Assembly: GCA_005800655.1 (NCBI GenBank)
Contig: SYEV01000005.1
Span: 1-36,311 of the forward strand
DNA from: Bacteroidota bacterium
GTDB taxonomy: Bacteria > Bacteroidota > Bacteroidia > Chitinophagales > Chitinophagaceae
Direction of reading: 5' to 3'
DNA length: 36,311 nt
Position numbers and translations under genes: made by a program. This document shows, one piece after another, positions 497 through 19,713 of the stretch. Every line of letters starts with the position of its first letter. Position 1 is the first letter of the stretch. Below the pieces are notes generated by a model. The model was not told where the DNA came from. It saw only the letters and a program-made list of their open reading frames with translations, and did no database searches.

Positions 497-502
497 CAAA
501 TG

Positions 503-872
503 TGGAGTCGAGGGGAGTCGAACCCCTGTCCAAACAATGTTACCATTGATCTTCTACATGCTTATTGTTTTATTACTTGTCGGTGAATAACAGGAAAAAC
601 ACAAACCAATTATTCACTTAGCTGGATGGTACTTAAATAAAAGGCACAGCCTACTTTTATCGCATCCCGTTTTGTTTTGATTGGGCTGAGGAGCGGGTAA
701 CGGGCCTACCTTCTCGCTCGACCATAATGGAAGTTAATTCACTGAATTAAGCAGCCATGGCGTAATTTGCTTCGCCTTTTGATTGTTTGGTATTCATATT
801 AAAGTGCTAATTACCCAACGCACTGCATGCTTACCCCAACCGCTACGATTGCTGTCAAAACCATACGACCCC
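503..872 (-). ncRNA. ssrA: Transfer-messenger RNA (tmRNA)
   Basis: Rescues stalled ribosomes by acting first as an alanine tRNA and then as a short mRNA that tags the nascent chain for proteolysis. The 3' part has the T-arm GGGGTTCGACTCCCC-type sequence ending CGACTCC-A, which pairs with the 5' GGGGTCG at 872-866 to form the 7-bp acceptor stem with one G-U. The 5' side carries TATGGTTTTGACAG. The reading frame at 776-747 encodes the tag GEANYAMAA and a TAA stop, typical of Bacteroidota tags ending YA(L/M)AA. The terminal CCA is not encoded: the genomic bases after the discriminator A read CAT. The mature ends are inferred from pairing. Confidence 0.95.
747..776 (-). other. tmRNA proteolysis-tag reading frame (GEANYAMAA)
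   Basis: Ten codons inside the tmRNA: GGC (inferred resume codon), GAA, GCA, AAT, TAC, GCC, ATG, GCT, GCT and TAA. The C-terminal AA is the usual signal for ClpXP-type proteases. The resume codon is assigned by analogy with other Bacteroidota tags that begin GE. Confidence 0.85.
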
Positions 873-5173: not shown

Positions 5174-5473
5174 ATGCTAGCAGTTGTAAAAATCTCAGGT
5201 CAGCAATTTAAAGTACAAGCCGGACAAAGCTTGTATGTGCCTCACCTGGAAGGTAAAACAGGAGATAAAGTTGAATTCAACGATGTAATTTTTGTTGATA
5301 ACAACGGAAGTATCTCATTTACGAGTAAAGTAACAGTGAAAGCTGAAATCTTGAACGATTTAGTTCAGGGTGACAAAGTGATCGCTTTTAAGATGAAAAG
5401 ACGTAAGGGTTTTCGTAAGAAGCACGGTCACAGAACACATTATACTCAAATCAAAATTGAGAACATCGCTTAA
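5174..5473 (+). CDS. rplU: 50S ribosomal protein L21
   Basis: Large-subunit protein that binds 23S rRNA near L20. Recognised from the N-terminal VVKISGQQFKVQAGQ region and the C-terminal basic motif with KMKRRKGFRKKHGHR at about residues 74-88, the RNA-binding signature of L21. Length 99 residues is typical. The ATG at 5174 follows the promoter by 21 bp. rpmA follows after 45 bp, the almost universal rplU-rpmA pairing. Confidence 0.97.
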   Translation: MLAVVKISGQQFKVQAGQSLYVPHLEGKTGDKVEFNDVIFVDNNGSISFTSKVTVKAEILNDLVQGDKVIAFKMKRRKGFRKKHGHRTHYTQIKIENIA

Positions 5474-5518: not shown

Positions 5519-5785
5519 ATGGCACACAAAAAAGGAGAAGGATCGGTAAAAAATGGCCGTGATTCGCATAGTAAGCGTTTAGGCGTTAAGATATATGGTG
5601 GTCAACCAGCTTTGTCTGGGAATATCCTAATTCGTCAAAGAGGTACACAGTACCACCCTGGTAAGAATGTAGGATTGGGTTCTGACTTCACTATTTTCGC
5701 TATGACCAACGGGGTTGTAGAGTTCAAAAAAGGTAAAAATAACAGAACTACCGTTTCTGTTTTACCAGCACAAGAAATAGCTTAA
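5519..5785 (+). CDS. rpmA: 50S ribosomal protein L27
   Basis: Large-subunit protein whose N-terminal tail reaches the peptidyl-transferase centre. It begins [19 protein letters not shown] and contains the L27 signature around [17 protein letters not shown] (about residues 45-61). There is no extra cleavable N-terminal extension of the Firmicute kind. Length 88 residues is normal. The stop is followed by a T-rich stretch containing a candidate promoter for the small basic gene downstream. Confidence 0.97.
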
Positions 5786-5861: not shown

Positions 5862-5987
5862 ATGGCAACTGCAAAAAAAGCCGCTCCTAAAAAAGCTGCA
5901 AAAAAAGCTGCTCCTAAAAAGAAAGCTGCTAAAAAAGCTGCTCCTAAGAAGAAAGCTGCTAAGAAGAAAGCTGCTAAAAAGAAATAA
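5862..5987 (+). CDS. Small Lys/Ala/Pro-rich histone-H1-like protein (41 aa)
   Basis: A 41-codon gene starting MATAKKAAPKKAAKKAAPKK and continuing with the same Lys/Ala/Pro pattern to three final lysines. Apart from the first Met and one Thr, every residue is Lys, Ala or Pro. This composition matches the C-terminal tails of histone H1 and the bacterial H1-like/AlgP-like nucleoid proteins, which bind DNA or RNA electrostatically. It has no folded domain. It is preceded by A-rich AAATCTAAAAAAC rather than a clear Shine-Dalgarno, and followed 56 bp later by a strong terminator. The gene is real in my view because the frame is open from a good ATG to a stop near the terminator and synonymous codons vary (GCT/GCA/GCC, AAA/AAG). 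A DNA- or rRNA-binding role is inferred from composition only. Confidence 0.8.
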   Translation: MATAKKAAPKKAAKKAAPKKKAAKKAAPKKKAAKKKAAKKK

Positions 5988-6043: not shown

Positions 6044-6075
6044 TCCTCTCCGATTTTCGGGGAGGATTTTTTTTT
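6044..6075 (+). terminator. Rho-independent terminator after rplU-rpmA-H1-like genes
   Basis: Ten-pair stem (TCCTCTCCGA with TCGGGGAGGA, one G-U), a TTT loop, then nine T residues at 6067-6075. Confidence 0.9.
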
Positions 6076-6104: not shown

Positions 6105-7781
6105 ATGCACAATTACGAAATCGCCGAATACTTTTCATTGCTCAGTAAGTTGATGGAAATACATGGAGAAAATCCATTTAAAATTAAGTCCTATTCGAAC
6201 GCTGCTTTTACATTGGATAAACTAAATGATCCAGTAATTGACATGGAGCCTCATCAACTATTCTCTATACGAGGCATTGGTGATGCCATTGGTCAAAAAG
6301 TGCTCGAAATCATTGATTATAAACGACTTAGCCTACTTGACAGTTATATAGAAAAAACACCAACAGGCGTATTTGAATTTTTAAAAATCAAAGGATTAGG
6401 TCCAAAAAAAATTGTTACTATCTGGAAGGAATTAGAAATAGAAAGTATTGGAGAACTACTTTATGCATGCGAAGAAAATAGGTTAGTAAAGTACAAAGGC
6501 TTTGGTGCAAAGACGCAACAAAATATTCAAGACGCACTTGTATTTTATTTACAACATCAAGGAAGATATTTATTTCAACAAGTAGTTCCGCTTGTTGAAA
6601 ATTTAAAAATTGCTTTAGCAGAAAAAATAAATGGTCCTGATTTATTTTCAATTTCAGGTGGGTATAAAAGACAATTAGAAATTATAGATCATCTTGAAAT
6701 TGTAACCACATTCTCTGAAAAAGAATTAACCAATTGGTTAACAGAAAAAAGTTTTCAATGCACAAAAAATGAAAAATATTTAAGTTGTATTGGTACAGAT
6801 AAATTTGAAATCAGATGGTATTTTACCGACATTTCTGATTTTTATTGGACCGATTTTACCCTATCGGGCTCCCCTGAATTTTTGGAAAAATGGGAATCTG
6901 ACCCCCTATTTTCAAAAAAAATCCCATTTATTTCAGAAAAAAACATCTTTGACCAAATTAATTCACCCTTCATTCCAGCCCCTTTAAGGGAACTTCCAGC
7001 CATCATTGACCTCGCAAAAAATAATAAATTACCCAAACTTATACAACCAGAAGATATTAAAGGGATCATTCATTCCCATAGTACCTGGAGTGACGGTGTA
7101 CATACAATTGAACAAATGGCCTTAGCCGCCATCGAAAAAGGGTATGAATATTTAATGATTAGCGATCATTCCAAATCTGCATTTTATGCAGGCGGATTAT
7201 CTATTGATAGTGTAAAGGCCCAACATAGGGAAATAGACATGCTTAATAAAAAATTAGCCCCCTTTGTTATATTTAAAAGTATCGAGTCTGATATATTAAA
7301 TGATGGCAGCTTGGATTACCCAGAAGAAATATTAGCCTGTTTTGATATTGTCATTGCTTCCATTCATTCTAATTTAAAAATGACTGAAGAAAAAGCAATG
7401 ATGCGTTTATTAAATGCAGTGAACAACCCTTATACAAGTATTTTAGGACACCCTACTGGTAGATTATTATTAAGCAGGAAAGGATATCCTGTGAATCATG
7501 AAGCATTAATTGACGCTTGCGCAGATAATAATGTAGTATTAGAATTAAACGCACACCCAAGAAGATTAGATATGGATTGGCGTTTTATACACCTCGCATT
7601 ACAACAGGACGTTCTTATTTCCATTAATCCAGATGCACATGCGATTGAAGGATATGATGATTGCAAATATGGCGTACTGGTTGCCCAAAAAGCAGGATTA
7701 TCAGCCGCTCAAAATTTAAGCAGTTTTAATTTAGCTGAAATGATGGAGTTTGTAGAATTTCAACAATCTAAAAGAAACTAG
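6105..7781 (+). CDS. PolX-like protein: HhH repeats, degenerate polymerase palm, PHP phosphoesterase domain
   Basis: Bacterial PolX enzymes combine a gap-filling family-X polymerase with a C-terminal PHP 3'-5' exonuclease. Here three helix-hairpin-helix loops are clear: IRGIGDAIG (55-63), IKGLGPKKI (95-103) and YKGFGAKT (130-137). The PHP domain carries the expected metal ligands: HSHSTWSDG (323-331), ISDHS (352-356), E394, H421, GHPTG (448-452) and NPDAH (508-512). The palm looks altered. The segment equivalent to GSxRRgxExxGDxD is GGYKRQLEIIDHLE (185-198), so in an ungapped alignment the catalytic aspartates become H196 and E198, and the third one appears as E235. At 558 residues the length matches PolX. 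A DNA-binding PHP nuclease without polymerase activity is my reading. It is convergent with the GH13 gene, 17 bp away. Confidence 0.85.
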   Translation: MHNYEIAEYFSLLSKLMEIHGENPFKIKSYSNAAFTLDKLNDPVIDMEPHQLFSIRGIGDAIGQKVLEIIDYKRLSLLDSYIEKTPTGVFEFLKIKGLGPKKIVTIWKELEIESIGELLYACEENRLVKYKGFGAKTQQNIQDALVFYLQHQGRYLFQQVVPLVENLKIALAEKINGPDLFSISGGYKRQLEIIDHLEIVTTFSEKELTNWLTEKSFQCTKNEKYLSCIGTDKFEIRWYFTDISDFYWTDFTLSGSPEFLEKWESDPLFSKKIPFISEKNIFDQINSPFIPAPLRELPAIIDLAKNNKLPKLIQPEDIKGIIHSHSTWSDGVHTIEQMALAAIEKGYEYLMISDHSKSAFYAGGLSIDSVKAQHREIDMLNKKLAPFVIFKSIESDILNDGSLDYPEEILACFDIVIASIHSNLKMTEEKAMMRLLNAVNNPYTSILGHPTGRLLLSRKGYPVNHEALIDACADNNVVLELNAHPRRLDMDWRFIHLALQQDVLISINPDAHAIEGYDDCKYGVLVAQKAGLSAAQNLSSFNLAEMMEFVEFQQSKRN

Positions 7782-10627: not shown

Positions 10628-12988
10628 CTAATGTTTAGGCAATGCGATCAAGTTGGCTAATAACTTAAAGGCCCCTGGATTACCTGCGGGAAGTTGTCTA
10701 AATAATGTTAAACTAAGATATACAAAATTACCTTTCCCATAAGGCGCAATTAATAAACTTCCACTGGAAGGCGCCTCCCCTTTATCACTCATAGCAAGTG
10801 GCATTTCAAAATGAGCATCTACATTTTCTGCTTGATAGGTACTGCGCTCTTGCACCCAATTTTCAAAGTCAGTTGCAGTAATTTTGTTAGGTGTATTTAA
10901 TACCACATGTTGTGGTAAAGTAAATGTAACCGGAACATTTTCCTGTGTGACACGCCTTCCAGAATTTACAATAAATGGATAGGGCCCTACTTTAATTTTT
11001 TGTAAGCCTACCTGATTACTTTTTATATATTGCACAATCACATTACCACCTTGTTCAATATATTTATTTAGTTCCTCGTTTTCAGTGGTTAAGTATTCAT
11101 ATAAATTATAGGCCCTTATGCCTACAATGATGGCATCAAATGATTTTAATTTATCCAATACAAAATCTGAAGGCTTTATATAGGTCACCGAAAAGCCAAG
11201 CTCCACAAGCGCTTCAGGTATTTTATCACCCGCCCCATCAATGTATCCAATTTTTTTACCCTTCGTGTTTACTTGTGCCTTTACTAAAGTAGTGGTAGCC
11301 GTTGGGAAATACGTAATGGTAGAAATGTGATCATATTGAATTGTTTTTTGAAACACTGCAGATGCAGGCGTTGGCAACTGAATATTAGGGTCGCTTACTG
11401 TAAATGATTTTGATTCATTTTTCCCCAAGTGATTGATGATATGATAATTAACCGGAATGGACTTTTCGCCATTCATTAAATGCAACTCCTTATCATATTT
11501 TATTTCCTGCCCAGGAACTACCGCGATGGGTTGATGCACTTCACCTTTGGTGGGATCTACAAATTTGTATTGCACTGGAATTTGAAACTCAAATAATTGA
11601 TTCTCGATGGTCACATTTAATTTGCAAGTAAAGGCAGGGTCATTTTCGGGCTGGCCAATTAATTGTTGGTCATTCACGACGAACATGCCTTCTGTTTTTG
11701 GAGATACTAGCCAATAAGGTTGTGAAATAGATTGAGATGTTGGAATACTATAATTATGCTCCCAAACCAAATTCTGATTCACCACTAAGGTTTTATTAAA
11801 ATTAGAATCCCTACCAGGCAATTGCACTAAACCCAAATTTACTTGCACATTTGAACGCTGATTCATACTAAATTGCATTGACAAATTTTTACCTGGGAAA
11901 ACCTGTTGCTGCGAACTGGTGGCTTCCACAAATAAGCCTGCGCATGCCTGCACTAAGGATTTAATTTCGTTTAATTTATATGTTTTCCAAACCGAGCTGG
12001 GTAAATTATTAACCAACTTATATAATTGCACCAAATCCTTTACTGATTTTTCAGGATTTTCTATTTTATAGTTTTGTATAATTGCAGTAACAGCATCATG
12101 AATTTCAGGCGCATTCAATCGCGTCCAACTTGAGTTCACCCCCTCCATAATATCTTTACTAGCTTTATCTCCTGCCACCCAATCAAAATATTCGGTAATG
12201 CTTCCGCGTCGACGAGGCCTTCCCTCCCCTTGACTTTTATGCATGGATCGCGCTTCGGCGCCAATTTCACCATAATTTTTTCCTATTAATGCATTGTATC
12301 CACCTACTTCAATTTTTAGTTGTTGGTCATTGGTGGTATTTGCCCCACCAAAATTGAACGTATTCCAAAGTATTCTTTTCGCTTTCCAAACGGTGACCCC
12401 ATATTTCAATTGTTCTGGAAATTGATTTGAATCAGCCGCAGCAATAAAAGCCTCTTTTGCAATAATTGCGGATGCCGCATGATGTCCATGCCCTGCGCGC
12501 GCATCCGGAGGAAAGCGCGCAATAATTATATCAGGTTGGAATTTACGAATCACCCAGACTGCATCGCTTAATACTTGTTGGTGATCCCAAATGGCTAAGG
12601 CTTCCTCCGCTGATTTACTAAATCCAAACTCATAGGCCCTTGAAAAATATTGTTCTGCCCCATCTTGCTGACGTGCTGCAAGTAATTCTTTGGTTCTTAT
12701 TAATCCTAATTCAATCCCCTGCTCCTTACCTAATAAATTTTGTCCACCATCGCCCCTAGTCAAACTTAGATAAGCGGTACGGTACATGCGCTCATTGGTC
12801 AAGAAAGGTAAAAAGCTGTTGTTTTCATCATCCGGATGTGCAGCAACATATAAAACGCTCCCCACCACATCTAACTTTTTTAATTTAGAAAATATTTCAG
12901 CACTCGATTTTTGTGCATTGCTATTGGATATTTGCAACACAAAAAAAGTAAGTAGTAAAAAAAATGACTTTTTAAACGATTGATACAT
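10628..12988 (-). CDS. Secreted PIG-L (LmbE-like) deacetylase with C-terminal amidotransferase-like domain
   Basis: PIG-L enzymes are zinc deacetylases acting on N-acetylglucosaminyl or related amide substrates. A signal peptide (about residues 1-25, ending NSNAQ) predicts export. The zinc site is HPDDE at 51-55 with a second ligand in HGHH at 167-170. The middle (about 350-560) is rich in beta strands and may be an Ig-like or NEW-type spacer. The last 210 residues (575-786), from KKIGYIDGAGDKIPEAL to GKGNFVYLSLTLFRQ, resemble class-I-amidotransferase-like (ThuA/BPL-N-like) folds, but no catalytic Cys is evident there. At 786 residues it is much longer than single-domain PIG-L. The substrate is unknown; an extracellular glycan is a reasonable guess. 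Upstream is the divergent ggt gene. Confidence 0.85.
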   Translation of the reverse strand: MYQSFKKSFFLLLTFFVLQISNSNAQKSSAEIFSKLKKLDVVGSVLYVAAHPDDENNSFLPFLTNERMYRTAYLSLTRGDGGQNLLGKEQGIELGLIRTKELLAARQQDGAEQYFSRAYEFGFSKSAEEALAIWDHQQVLSDAVWVIRKFQPDIIIARFPPDARAGHGHHAASAIIAKEAFIAAADSNQFPEQLKYGVTVWKAKRILWNTFNFGGANTTNDQQLKIEVGGYNALIGKNYGEIGAEARSMHKSQGEGRPRRRGSITEYFDWVAGDKASKDIMEGVNSSWTRLNAPEIHDAVTAIIQNYKIENPEKSVKDLVQLYKLVNNLPSSVWKTYKLNEIKSLVQACAGLFVEATSSQQQVFPGKNLSMQFSMNQRSNVQVNLGLVQLPGRDSNFNKTLVVNQNLVWEHNYSIPTSQSISQPYWLVSPKTEGMFVVNDQQLIGQPENDPAFTCKLNVTIENQLFEFQIPVQYKFVDPTKGEVHQPIAVVPGQEIKYDKELHLMNGEKSIPVNYHIINHLGKNESKSFTVSDPNIQLPTPASAVFQKTIQYDHISTITYFPTATTTLVKAQVNTKGKKIGYIDGAGDKIPEALVELGFSVTYIKPSDFVLDKLKSFDAIIVGIRAYNLYEYLTTENEELNKYIEQGGNVIVQYIKSNQVGLQKIKVGPYPFIVNSGRRVTQENVPVTFTLPQHVVLNTPNKITATDFENWVQERSTYQAENVDAHFEMPLAMSDKGEAPSSGSLLIAPYGKGNFVYLSLTLFRQLPAGNPGAFKLLANLIALPKH

Positions 12989-15027: not shown

Positions 15028-18000
15028 TTGCTAAAAAACAAGCTTACCATACTGAGAATTGTGATTGCTACCGTGGTAGGGTTTCTCCTATTTTGCTGTT
15101 TGTTATTATTGCTCCCTTGGGTACAAAATAAATTAATTACCCGTGTTGCTAGTAGTTTTTCAAAATCCATTGGAACGGAAGTTAAAATTGGTCATGTTGG
15201 ATTTTCCCTATTTAATAGATTAGACCTTGAAGATATTCTTATCAAAGATGAAAAAAACGATACTTTAGTTTTCTCGAAAATAGGTAAGCTTCGATTGACT
15301 GACTTATACTTTTCTAATTCAGCGCCTGTTATTCGATATATAGGCTTAGAAGGTACTCGGATTTATTTAAACAGAAGTACCCTAAAATGGAACTATCAGT
15401 TTTTATTGAACTACTTAAATAAAGACAGCTCCAATCAAAAATCAACCAGCTTAGATATCAAGAAAATTGATTTAAGTGATTTCCGTTTTATTTTAGATGA
15501 CCAATGGGATGGTGAAAAAACAGAAGTAACAGCAAAAAACCTGTTGTTAAACATGAAGTTGTTTAATCAAGCGAATAAGCAAATTGTTATTGACCAATTA
15601 ATCGTCAATAAGCCGTTCATTAACCTTCACTCCTACGAGGGAAAAAATACGACTATTCAAAAGGACACCAAGCAAGGTAATTTCAAATCGGCACAATTAA
15701 ATCCCAATGATTTAAGTATAGTTGCTAACGAAATTCAAGTGATTAACGGAAAGTTTTTAATTGAATACGGCTTCGAAAAACCAGTCCCCTATTTTGATGG
15801 CGCGCATATTCGTATGCATGACTTAAATGCACAAATTTATAATGCAACATTGTCCAAAGACACCCTCACTGCAAAAGTTAATTTAAGCGTTAAGGAAAGA
15901 TCGGGCTTTGAAATAAAAAAATTAAGCACCCATTTTAAATTGACGTCCCAAATAATGGAGTTTGCGCAATTGTCCTTAAAAACAAACAATAGCATTATTG
16001 GCCCTTACTTTGCAATGCAATACAAAAGCTTTAAAAAGGATTTTAATAATTACATACAAAATGTAAACATGAAAGCACATTTCGAAAATTCATTAGTTGC
16101 TATTAAAGATATTGCCTACTTCACGCCTGCTTTAAATAATATTGATCAAAAAGTTAAACTAAATTTTCATTTTAATGGTACCGTGGCCAATTTTGAGACC
16201 AAGGACTTGCTAGTAAATTATAACAACTCCACCATCAAAGGTAGCTTTAGTATGAAGGGCTTACCTAGCTTGAGAAATACGCAGATTGATTTTAATAATG
16301 TTGTATCTGCTACCAATTTTAATGATTTATCCAACTGGCTTCCTACCTTAAAGAATAATAAAGAAATAAAATTCGAAAAACTAGGCACCATTTTATTTGC
16401 TGGAAATTTCAAAGGAACTGTTTATGATTTTATTACCAAGGGGGAATTTAATACCGACATAGGCTATACGAATACAGAGATTCGATTACAGTTCCCGATA
16501 GATAAAGAGCCAAGTTATGAAGGGATATTAAAAACAAGCCATTTTAATGCAGGCAAACTGTTTGATATATCCTCATTAGGATTATTAAATTTTAATGGCA
16601 AAATTAAAGGCAGCTCATTTGATCTTAATAAACAAAAAACCAATATACAAGGTAATATTGACAGCATTGCATGGAATAATTACAATTATACCAACATCAC
16701 GACCAATGGTGATATTCAAAAAGGCGCTTACAATGGCAGCTTAAAAATTAAGGACCCCAATATTAATTTTATCAGCAATATTGAAGTGGACTTTAACCAG
16801 GCAAAGCCAAAGATCAATGCCGTAGGCGATTTGCAAAACACCAATTTAAAAGAATTAGGATTTTCAAAAAATAAAATTCAACTGACTGGATTATTGGACA
16901 TCAATTTTGATGGAGACAGCATTGATAACTTCATGGGCTATGCCAAGTTTTATAATGGTCAATTAATAGGGGAACAGTCAGTGGTGCGTTTTGATTCAAT
17001 TACCTTGAATTCTAGTATTGAAAAAGGAATTAAATATTTAAGATTAGCCAGTGATGATATTAATGCGAACATATCAGGCAAATTCAATATCTCCCATTTA
17101 CCTGCAAGCATTCAGTTTTTTATGCAGCGCTATTTGCCAAGCTATATCCCTGCCCCATCCAATACGCCAGCTAATCAATTGTTTGATATACAAATTAAAA
17201 CGAATTACATTGAGCCATTTATTCGCATTTTTAATAGCTCGTTCTCGGGATTCAATAATCTAAATTTAAAAGGTGCGATTAATACAGACAGTAAAACGCT
17301 AAAATTTAATGCCACAGTTCCCTTTGCACAATGGCAGGATATGGCATTTAAAGGCGGTGTATTTACCGGAAATGGAAATAAGGATTCTATTCATTTACTT
17401 GTAAAAGCAAATAACTACCAAATAACAGACAGCTTTAGCTTTGTTGATCCAATCATCAATATTCATACAGCAAATGATAAATCCAATATCCAAATTACTG
17501 CGACAAGTAATAATGCATTGCAAAATGTAAATTTAGCTGGCACTGTAAATACTTATTCCGATGGCTTGGCTATAAAGTGGAAGCCCTCCTATTTTTTATT
17601 AAATCAAAAAAGATGGGATATTAATAATGGTGGAGAAATTTCACTTCGAAAAAATAACGTTTTTGCAAAAGACGTAAAGTTTTCACAAGGAATACAGGAA
17701 CTATTATTATCAAGTGCCAAGGGTAATAATTTGCAACTAGAACTCAATGATATTATTTTAGGCGACATCACTAAATTATTTTTTCGATACCCGCAATTGG
17801 AAGGCGTTACCAATGGCATCATTGATTTAAAAAATGTATTGGATAATTTTGAGCTCAGTTCGGATATCAACATTGATCAATTTAGTTTTAACAACGAAGT
17901 GGTTGGAATGACTAATTTAATTGCTTCCTATAATAATAAAACGGGCATAGTCCCTTTTTCTTTTGATATACCCAATAAAGCGTATAATTTTTCAGCAGAA

Positions 18001-19713
18001 GGAACTTATAACACCAAGGACAGCGTTAATCCACTAGATGCCACTTTGTATTTAAACCACACTAAATTCAGTTTGGTAGAACAATTCATTGGTGGTGTGC
18101 TCACCAACTTAGATGGAAAAGCAGATGGAAAAATTCATTTTGGCGGGCGTATTGAAAACCCTGTATTATTAGGTGCGGCGACCATTCAAGATGCCTCATT
18201 AAAAGTGGATTATACCAAAGTGCGCTACTTTATAAAAGAAGCGACCATTCAATTTACAAAAGAAGGAATCGATTTTGGAAATATCCAACTAACCGATCAA
18301 TTAAATCGAAAGGCTTTATTTAAAGGTAAAATACGAAACGAGGGCTTTAAGCATTTGACCTATGACCTTGAAATGAGTAGCAATAAAATTGAAATGCTAA
18401 ATATGGGGTCTGCTGACAACATTTATTTTTATGGTAATGCAGTTGGGAAAGTTGCTATGACCATTAAAGGCCCAGAGGAAAACATTAAAATGACTATCAA
18501 TGCAGATGTGAATGACAGCTCCCATTTGTACATTCCCAATACCACCAGCAAAGAAGCTGGAAGCAACGATTTTATATTATTTAAAAAATATGGGAAAACA
18601 GGGGTAAAAAGTGCTGATATTCCAACCTACAATTTATCGGTAGACTTAGACCTTTCGGCCAATAATAAAACCAAAATAGATGTGATTTTAGACGAATTAA
18701 CGGGAGATATCATCAAGGCGAAGGGAAATGGTCGTTTAAAAATTAGAGCAGGTAATATTGAACCATTAAACATCAGAGGAAAATACAATGTTGAATCAGG
18801 AAATTACGACTTCAACTTTCAGTCTTTTATCAAAAAGCCATTTGAATTGATTCCTGAAGTTGGAAATTATATTGAATGGACTGGTAATCCATATGATGCA
18901 GAAATTCATGTGGATGCGCGTTACACTGCTGATCGTATTAGTTTAAATGAGTTGGTGGGCAGCGCTAATTTTAGCAATGCAGTAAAATCGTATCGCGGAA
19001 GTGTTTATGTGATTGCTGCACTAAGAAACAAACTATTCCAGCCAAATATTAAATTTAGCATCGCATTTCCTCAAGGCAATCCGATTAGCTCCGACAATGA
19101 ATTTTCTCAATTCATAACAAGATTAGAAAGAGACGAAAATGAAATTTTAAAGCAAGTTTCCTTCTTAATTGTATTTAACTCATTCGCGCCCGTTGGATTT
19201 AGCACAGGCAATAGCAACAACGCCTACAGTATGACCTCCATTGGTATCAATACCATATCACAATTGTTGACCAAAGAAGTCAATAAATCAGTGACGAATT
19301 TATTGAAAAAAGTAACCGGAGATAATAGTTTGCGATTTGATATTGGATCATCCGTCTATAATAGTGGAAATTTATTAGACCCCACTGGATCAGGCATTCC
19401 CATTAACGCCAATAAAATTGACCGTCAAAGAGTGAATTTAAAATTGGGCAGAAGCTTTTTAAATGACAAAGTAATTATTAATGTGGGTGGCGACTTAGAT
19501 TTTAATGTTCGCAGCAGCACTAATATTCAAAATGATAATTTACAATGGTTGCCTGATTTAAATATTGAGTTTATCTTAACGAGGGATCGTAAATTAAGAG
19601 CGATTGTATTTAATAGAAATAGCCTTGATATAAATGGAAGTAGTTTAGGCCGTCGTAATAGACAAGGGGTAAGTATCTCCTACCGAAAAGATTTTGAGAA
19701 ATTCTTATTTTAG
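15028..19713 (+). CDS. TamB-family translocation/assembly (AsmA-like bridge) protein
   Basis: Giant envelope protein (1561 residues) anchored in the inner membrane and spanning the periplasm as a long beta-rich groove. In other bacteria TamB-like proteins carry lipids to the outer membrane or help insert outer-membrane proteins. The start is TTG at 15028; no in-frame ATG lies nearby, and the signal-anchor helix (about residues 8-30, rich in Leu/Cys) begins just after it. The body is repetitive beta structure with recurring Asn/Lys/Phe patterns, as in AsmA/TamB proteins. The C-terminal part (about 1050-1561) fits the DUF490/TamB domain, with GDNSLRFDIGSS and RVNLKLGRSFLNDKV near the end. No TamA (BamA-like) partner is adjacent. 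It ends 18 bp from the convergent aroQ. Confidence 0.88.
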   Translation: MLKNKLTILRIVIATVVGFLLFCCLLLLLPWVQNKLITRVASSFSKSIGTEVKIGHVGFSLFNRLDLEDILIKDEKNDTLVFSKIGKLRLTDLYFSNSAPVIRYIGLEGTRIYLNRSTLKWNYQFLLNYLNKDSSNQKSTSLDIKKIDLSDFRFILDDQWDGEKTEVTAKNLLLNMKLFNQANKQIVIDQLIVNKPFINLHSYEGKNTTIQKDTKQGNFKSAQLNPNDLSIVANEIQVINGKFLIEYGFEKPVPYFDGAHIRMHDLNAQIYNATLSKDTLTAKVNLSVKERSGFEIKKLSTHFKLTSQIMEFAQLSLKTNNSIIGPYFAMQYKSFKKDFNNYIQNVNMKAHFENSLVAIKDIAYFTPALNNIDQKVKLNFHFNGTVANFETKDLLVNYNNSTIKGSFSMKGLPSLRNTQIDFNNVVSATNFNDLSNWLPTLKNNKEIKFEKLGTILFAGNFKGTVYDFITKGEFNTDIGYTNTEIRLQFPIDKEPSYEGILKTSHFNAGKLFDISSLGLLNFNGKIKGSSFDLNKQKTNIQGNIDSIAWNNYNYTNITTNGDIQKGAYNGSLKIKDPNINFISNIEVDFNQAKPKINAVGDLQNTNLKELGFSKNKIQLTGLLDINFDGDSIDNFMGYAKFYNGQLIGEQSVVRFDSITLNSSIEKGIKYLRLASDDINANISGKFNISHLPASIQFFMQRYLPSYIPAPSNTPANQLFDIQIKTNYIEPFIRIFNSSFSGFNNLNLKGAINTDSKTLKFNATVPFAQWQDMAFKGGVFTGNGNKDSIHLLVKANNYQITDSFSFVDPIINIHTANDKSNIQITATSNNALQNVNLAGTVNTYSDGLAIKWKPSYFLLNQKRWDINNGGEISLRKNNVFAKDVKFSQGIQELLLSSAKGNNLQLELNDIILGDITKLFFRYPQLEGVTNGIIDLKNVLDNFELSSDINIDQFSFNNEVVGMTNLIASYNNKTGIVPFSFDIPNKAYNFSAEGTYNTKDSVNPLDATLYLNHTKFSLVEQFIGGVLTNLDGKADGKIHFGGRIENPVLLGAATIQDASLKVDYTKVRYFIKEATIQFTKEGIDFGNIQLTDQLNRKALFKGKIRNEGFKHLTYDLEMSSNKIEMLNMGSADNIYFYGNAVGKVAMTIKGPEENIKMTINADVNDSSHLYIPNTTSKEAGSNDFILFKKYGKTGVKSADIPTYNLSVDLDLSANNKTKIDVILDELTGDIIKAKGNGRLKIRAGNIEPLNIRGKYNVESGNYDFNFQSFIKKPFELIPEVGNYIEWTGNPYDAEIHVDARYTADRISLNELVGSANFSNAVKSYRGSVYVIAALRNKLFQPNIKFSIAFPQGNPISSDNEFSQFITRLERDENEILKQVSFLIVFNSFAPVGFSTGNSNNAYSMTSIGINTISQLLTKEVNKSVTNLLKKVTGDNSLRFDIGSSVYNSGNLLDPTGSGIPINANKIDRQRVNLKLGRSFLNDKVIINVGGDLDFNVRSSTNIQNDNLQWLPDLNIEFILTRDRKLRAIVFNRNSLDINGSSLGRRNRQGVSISYRKDFEKFLF

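Follow-up and report, generated by a model that had tools for sequence, protein, structure and literature searches.

Does an X-family DNA polymerase whose palm motif has become degenerate still polymerise, or has it been kept for its nuclease? The question is raised by a gene in a 36,311-nucleotide stretch of a Chitinophagaceae genome (contig SYEV01000005.1; the whole stretch is called the window here), for which the original prediction had proposed an inactivated polymerase site beside an intact PHP nuclease. The open reading frame was borne out in both coordinates and strand; it begins with ATG and encodes 558 amino acids (Table 1). The product is an X-family protein with 8-kDa/HhH, thumb, palm/fingers and PHP regions. 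All three HhH loops that had been claimed were found (GIGDAIG, GLGPKK and GFGAKT), supported by Pfam matches to HHH_8 (residues 1–71) and HHH_5 (91–145). A Pfam PHP match at residues 323–368 scored under its own gathering score, and the DNA_pol_B palm and thumb models gave no match to the window PolX at E 0.1; both models were matched by three of three short relatives with a DDD triad that were scanned. The top NCBIfam model was PolX (PRK08609), with a score of 390.8 bits where the cut-off is 426. With its altered triad and a score under the curated cut-off, the protein falls outside canonical PolX (PRK08609/NF006375).

Table 1. Coordinates of features in the window and in related loci, each in the numbering of its own sequence.
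Feature	Sequence	Coordinates	Strand	Remarks
Noncanonical (putatively polymerase-dead) PolX, 558 aa	window	6105..7781	+	sequence, domain, alignment and tree evidence
8-kDa and thumb domains, three HhH loops	window	6105..6554	+	residues 1–150
Degenerate palm and fingers	window	6567..6974	+	residues about 155–290; H196, E198 and R237 in triad columns
PHP nuclease domain	window	7053..7778	+	residues about 317–558; nine metal ligands present
rplU	window	5174-5473		upstream of polX; name from reading of sequence
rpmA	window	5519-5785		upstream of polX; name from reading of sequence
Lys/Ala-rich, histone-H1-like 41-aa ORF	window	5862-5987		upstream of polX
Hairpin, then T run	window	6044..6075	+	between Lys/Ala-rich ORF and polX; found by eye
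tmRNA gene	window	500-872	-	tag peptide EANYAMAA
Protein of about 785 aa	window	10628-12988	-	N-terminal PIG-L deacetylase domain; no Pfam assignment beyond it
ORF of 1561 aa	window	15028-19713		no Pfam match at E 0.001
PHP-less short PolX, DDD triad	L114	2836-3858
PHP-less short PolX, DDD triad	L115	2753-3805
PHP-less short PolX, DDD triad	L116	2307-3332
PHP-less short PolX, DDD triad	L125-L128, L130

An AlphaFold2 model based on 33 sequences (mean pLDDT 91.4, pTM 0.83) predicted helical 8-kDa and thumb domains, a palm sheet (strands 181–184, 196–201, 218–221, 226–229 and 235–240) and a PHP fold. The nearest solved relatives are the PolX proteins of D. radiodurans (2w9m), which is the best PDB match by sequence, with 32% identity over the Foldseek alignment, and of Thermus thermophilus (3au2). 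Entries of these two were also the top PDB matches of the model in Foldseek, and their large rmsd values (9.5–18.7) are expected if domain placement differs. T. thermophilus PolX has the same domain order and fold; unlike the window protein, it keeps the DDD triad (198, 200, 243), the GSARR motif and full fingers. In the 8-kDa domain, K65 aligned with Lys in T. thermophilus PolX and Pol lambda and with Glu in D. radiodurans PolX, in a column that we take to be the position of the dRP-lyase Lys. Since K65 is kept in the window PolX and is Glu in D. radiodurans, the activities of these two proteins need not be identical.

The degenerate palm motif was confirmed: the canonical GSxRRxxExxGDxD is replaced by GGYKRQLEIIDHLE at residues 185–198. 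Triad columns were set by D198, D200 and D243 of T. thermophilus in a 179-sequence alignment, and the residues of the window PolX in these columns are H196, E198 and R237. As a positive control, the same columns in D. radiodurans contain A197, E199 and E234; the available text of Prostova et al. (2022, PMC9226535) gives this triad as AEE, with E199 and E234 mutated. Because the alignment recovers these published residues, Arg237 is the better third position, where the window protein differs from D. radiodurans. Glu235 had been proposed as the third Asp equivalent and was rejected, as it fits only with a two-residue gap and its own column is Gln in 44 of 46 canonical rows; alignment to Thermus PolX thus upheld H196 and E198 and replaced the third residue. 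The family is gapless in this strand (ENVLLKFY, DNFEIRWY and NGLKLRLY versus NGLQVDLR), and the R237 pairing was agreed by MAFFT in auto and local-pair modes, by profile–profile alignment with hhalign and by HMMER against T. thermophilus; HMMER against 2w9m aligned this stretch too loosely to decide. The distance from the first to the third triad position is 41 residues in the window PolX, 45 in T. thermophilus and 37 in D. radiodurans, which is a small shortening relative to T. thermophilus. H196 and E198 are also present in five public MAG loci that are 96–98% identical, four of which have the same 14 letters, so the altered motif is not an assembly error.

Two further changes were absent from the original prediction. 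About 22 residues are missing after GSPEF in the alignment, with segment 154–288 comprising 135 aa versus 161–162 aa in 30 canonical rows. The dNTP-contact stretch, canonically YFTGSKEHN, reads TLSGSPEFL: the steric-gate pair and the positions of Pol beta D276 (P257) and N279 (L260) are changed, and GS is kept. The PHP site is complete, as had been claimed, with ligands H323, H325, H355, E394, H421, H449, E480, D510 and H512 kept in 111 of 111 rows. They match the HHHEHHEDH ligand set of PMC9226535. Of the eight ligands tallied in the altered rows (E480 was not counted), six were present in 129/129 and D510 and H512 in 128/129, with one gap.

To see how far the altered triad extends, GTDB species genomes were scanned once, which confirmed 135 relatives, 80 of them kept; these were found through exact window peptides, so that the set leans to close kin. 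Three acidic triad residues occurred in none of the 81 rows made up of these relatives and the window. Among 147 sampled Chitinophagaceae genomes, non-DDD copies were read in 55 through two alignments (43 + 12), and 0/55 had three acidic residues; some copies keep two acidic residues (for example EER, EEI and QEE). PolX in the remaining family genomes was inferred from matches to a short DDD query, by which altered and canonical copies are indistinguishable; one match was weak (G444, E 1.8e-4), G437 was represented by a DDD copy only, and second matches in G375 and G376 were counted without reading the sequence. The window's own copy (L001) was left out before the triad alignment, a 151-residue frame without a palm (L117) was excluded from the triad counts, and the 129 altered rows include four loci twice (L148–L151 repeat L133, L135, L136 and L138).

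A tree was built by quick search from 91 of the 179 rows, including 17 of 80 scan loci and 10 of 30 phylum loci, with the triad columns removed; the 30 phylum loci were best-scoring matches and hence canonical by choice. One branch (SH-aLRT 91) separated 64 altered from 27 canonical rows. The window PolX shares the altered side with Bacteroidetes members and with D. radiodurans PolX, whose placement on a long branch is less sure.

Mean modal-residue frequency in the 129 altered rows was 0.66 for the 8-kDa domain, 0.80 for the thumb, 0.45 for the palm, 0.48 for the fingers and 0.81 for PHP. When the window was compared with locus L007, dN was 0.056 for 8-kDa plus thumb, 0.124 for palm plus fingers and 0.064 for PHP, with dN/dS of 0.07, 0.22 and 0.05, respectively. 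Across nine pairs, dN/dS in palm plus fingers ranged between 0.14 and 0.72, compared with 0.02–0.09 for the rest of the gene, and the palm-plus-fingers values are inflated by a dS lower than that of PHP in 9/9 pairs. On these sequence comparisons the palm looks faster-evolving yet constrained. For the palm/fingers segment (window 6567–6974 versus L002–L009), dS against that of PHP was, for example, 0.03 versus 0.21 with L002; recombination is a possible cause of the low dS. A 2026 survey (PMC12926913), in its accessible part, reports that the PHP site is better conserved than the polymerase site.

These features correspond to a described group. According to the available text of Prostova et al. 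(PMC9226535), 27.5% of the prokaryotic PolXs surveyed have altered triads and are termed noncanonical; the main cluster is formed mainly by Bacteroidetes and Deinococcus-Thermus and takes in most Bacteroidetes PolXs, many but not all members have palm deletions, and the Figure 3 legend names Taibaiella soli and Flavisolibacter sp. Like that cluster, the window PolX has an altered triad (H196/E198/R237, or E235 with a gap), shortened fingers, changed dNTP contacts, the full HHHEHHEDH set and 8-kDa and thumb domains, its H-E-R triad being a variant among many; neither Ku nor LigD, however, was found in its genus, as described below. T. soli and Flavisolibacter sp. are presumably Chitinophagaceae. 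Judged by its sequence, the window PolX belongs to the noncanonical group described in 2022 and is ordinary for such bacteria; the polymerase-loss interpretation is very probably right, but it has already been published for the group.

Two members of the group have been assayed: D. radiodurans (AEE) and D. gobiensis (ARE) PolX are reported in the same source (PMC9226535) to be Mn2+-dependent 3'-5' exonucleases with no polymerase activity; its authors did not reproduce the weak polymerase activity that had been reported earlier for D. radiodurans PolX. Given these assays on relatives, the reading best supported by our analysis is that polymerase function was lost and the PHP nuclease retained. 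Very probably, then, the window PolX is a member of the noncanonical cluster with a dead palm scaffold and a PHP 3'-end nuclease that would act in repair independent of Ku and LigD, as sequence, model and comparative analysis together suggest. The HhH/8-kDa and thumb domains would bind gapped, nicked or broken DNA; the palm and fingers, given the lost ligands and the deletions, would persist as a folded, catalytically dead scaffold; and the PHP domain would take nucleotides or damaged groups off 3' ends with Mn2+. In the window's genus the protein would most likely act without Ku/LigD end joining, in 3'-end cleaning or base-excision-type repair.

An alternative is that the palm holds a weak polymerase or nucleotidyl-transfer site formed by E198 and E235 in a shifted register. 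The two carboxylates lie on predicted palm strands 196–201 and 235–240; 114 of 129 altered rows have an acidic residue at the second triad position, and in the E235 column Glu is more frequent than any other residue (59/129). The conserved acidity at E198 might mean that this residue retains some function, and E235, which shares a predicted strand with R237, might conceivably come near the site. Against this, the first Asp is lost to H196, the third column is Arg in 78/129 altered rows and Glu in only 2/129, L260 stands in place of the dNTP-binding Asn, and the fingers have been shortened. D. radiodurans PolX, moreover, has Glu at both the second and third positions and showed no polymerase activity (PMC9226535). 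We therefore regard such a site as improbable.

It is likewise hard to credit that the window PolX is chiefly an end-joining nuclease working with Ku and LigD. This is what the NHEJ-gene enrichment reported for PolX genomes, Bacteroidetes included, would favor (about 49% versus about 19% in the available text of PMC9226535). Of 25 genomes of the window's genus, 22 had PolX and the three without a match are 57–77% complete, while neither Ku nor the LigD PE domain was found in any of the 25; of the 13 genomes with a completeness of 90% or more, 13/13 had PolX and 0/13 had Ku. The window's own genome (88% complete) contains one PolX and gave no match to Ku or LigD. In the family sample, 140 of 147 genomes had a PolX match, whether altered or canonical, and 63 had Ku, distributed over 61/140 genomes with a match and 2/7 without. 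PolX is thus near-universal there and is not tied to Ku, unlike the association described at the level of the phylum, and a link to end joining is disfavored for the window's genus. That the gene is a pseudogene in decay, or an artefact of assembly, as its degenerate palm motif alone might suggest, has a negligible probability and is refuted by the relatives, since the 558-codon frame is intact and near-identical in other MAGs, the HhH and PHP regions are strongly constrained and the altered triad is common to the clade.

The neighborhood of polX showed no linked repair partner among rplU, rpmA, the Lys/Ala-rich ORF and three opposite-strand upstream genes (a GH3/OlsH-like gene, dxr and rseP), all three of which were present in 34 of 42 loci with at least 5.2 kb upstream. 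The hairpin preceding polX is present in six aligned loci and appears terminator-like by its sequence. Six aligned loci differ in the repeat number of the 41-aa ORF, the window having the fewest repeats; this may be a true difference or a collapse in assembly.

A separate further PolX was detected in 16 genomes (13/147 of the family sample and 3/40 of a second sample), and all 16 have the DDD triad. Eight of these copies are open frames of 340–382 residues that end where PHP would start, and PHP homology was not found in the fetched flanks of any of the eight (L114–L116, L125–L128 and L130), all from Chitinophagaceae genomes that also hold a putatively polymerase-dead PolX. Another copy was fetched in 15 of the 16 DDD-carrying genomes and was altered in 15/15; in the sixteenth (G437) the DDD copy was found and an altered copy was not. 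In three genus members, the neighbors of the short PolX include baeRF, BON, YdjM or PLD-domain genes. The literature searched yielded no description of bacterial PolX proteins from Bacteroidetes that lack PHP. PHP is called obligatory in prokaryotic PolXs in the accessible part of PMC9226535; the set of the same paper includes 10 sequences of <400 residues, so that PHP-less copies may have been seen before. PolX2, as described in the available text of PMC12926913, is a different PHP-less group that also lacks the N-terminal domain.

We tentatively propose, as a possibility that we hold to be rather doubtful, that PolX has been split into its two halves in Chitinophagaceae, with a near-universal, vertically kept dead PolX serving as a Ku-independent 3'-end nuclease and a live PolX gained separately in some genomes, PHP-less in eight of those sampled. 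If true, nuclease and polymerase would be carried by separate proteins, which is also the eukaryotic arrangement. Small additions to the published picture are the Ku-less setting and the DDD copies found alongside altered PolX. The role of noncanonical PolX outside NHEJ is left open in PMC9226535, and small genomes of the Sediminibacterium type, where neither Ku nor LigD was found, offer a setting in which to ask about it. For the family, the window PolX would represent a clear, almost clade-wide case of a polymerase maintained for the sake of its nuclease.
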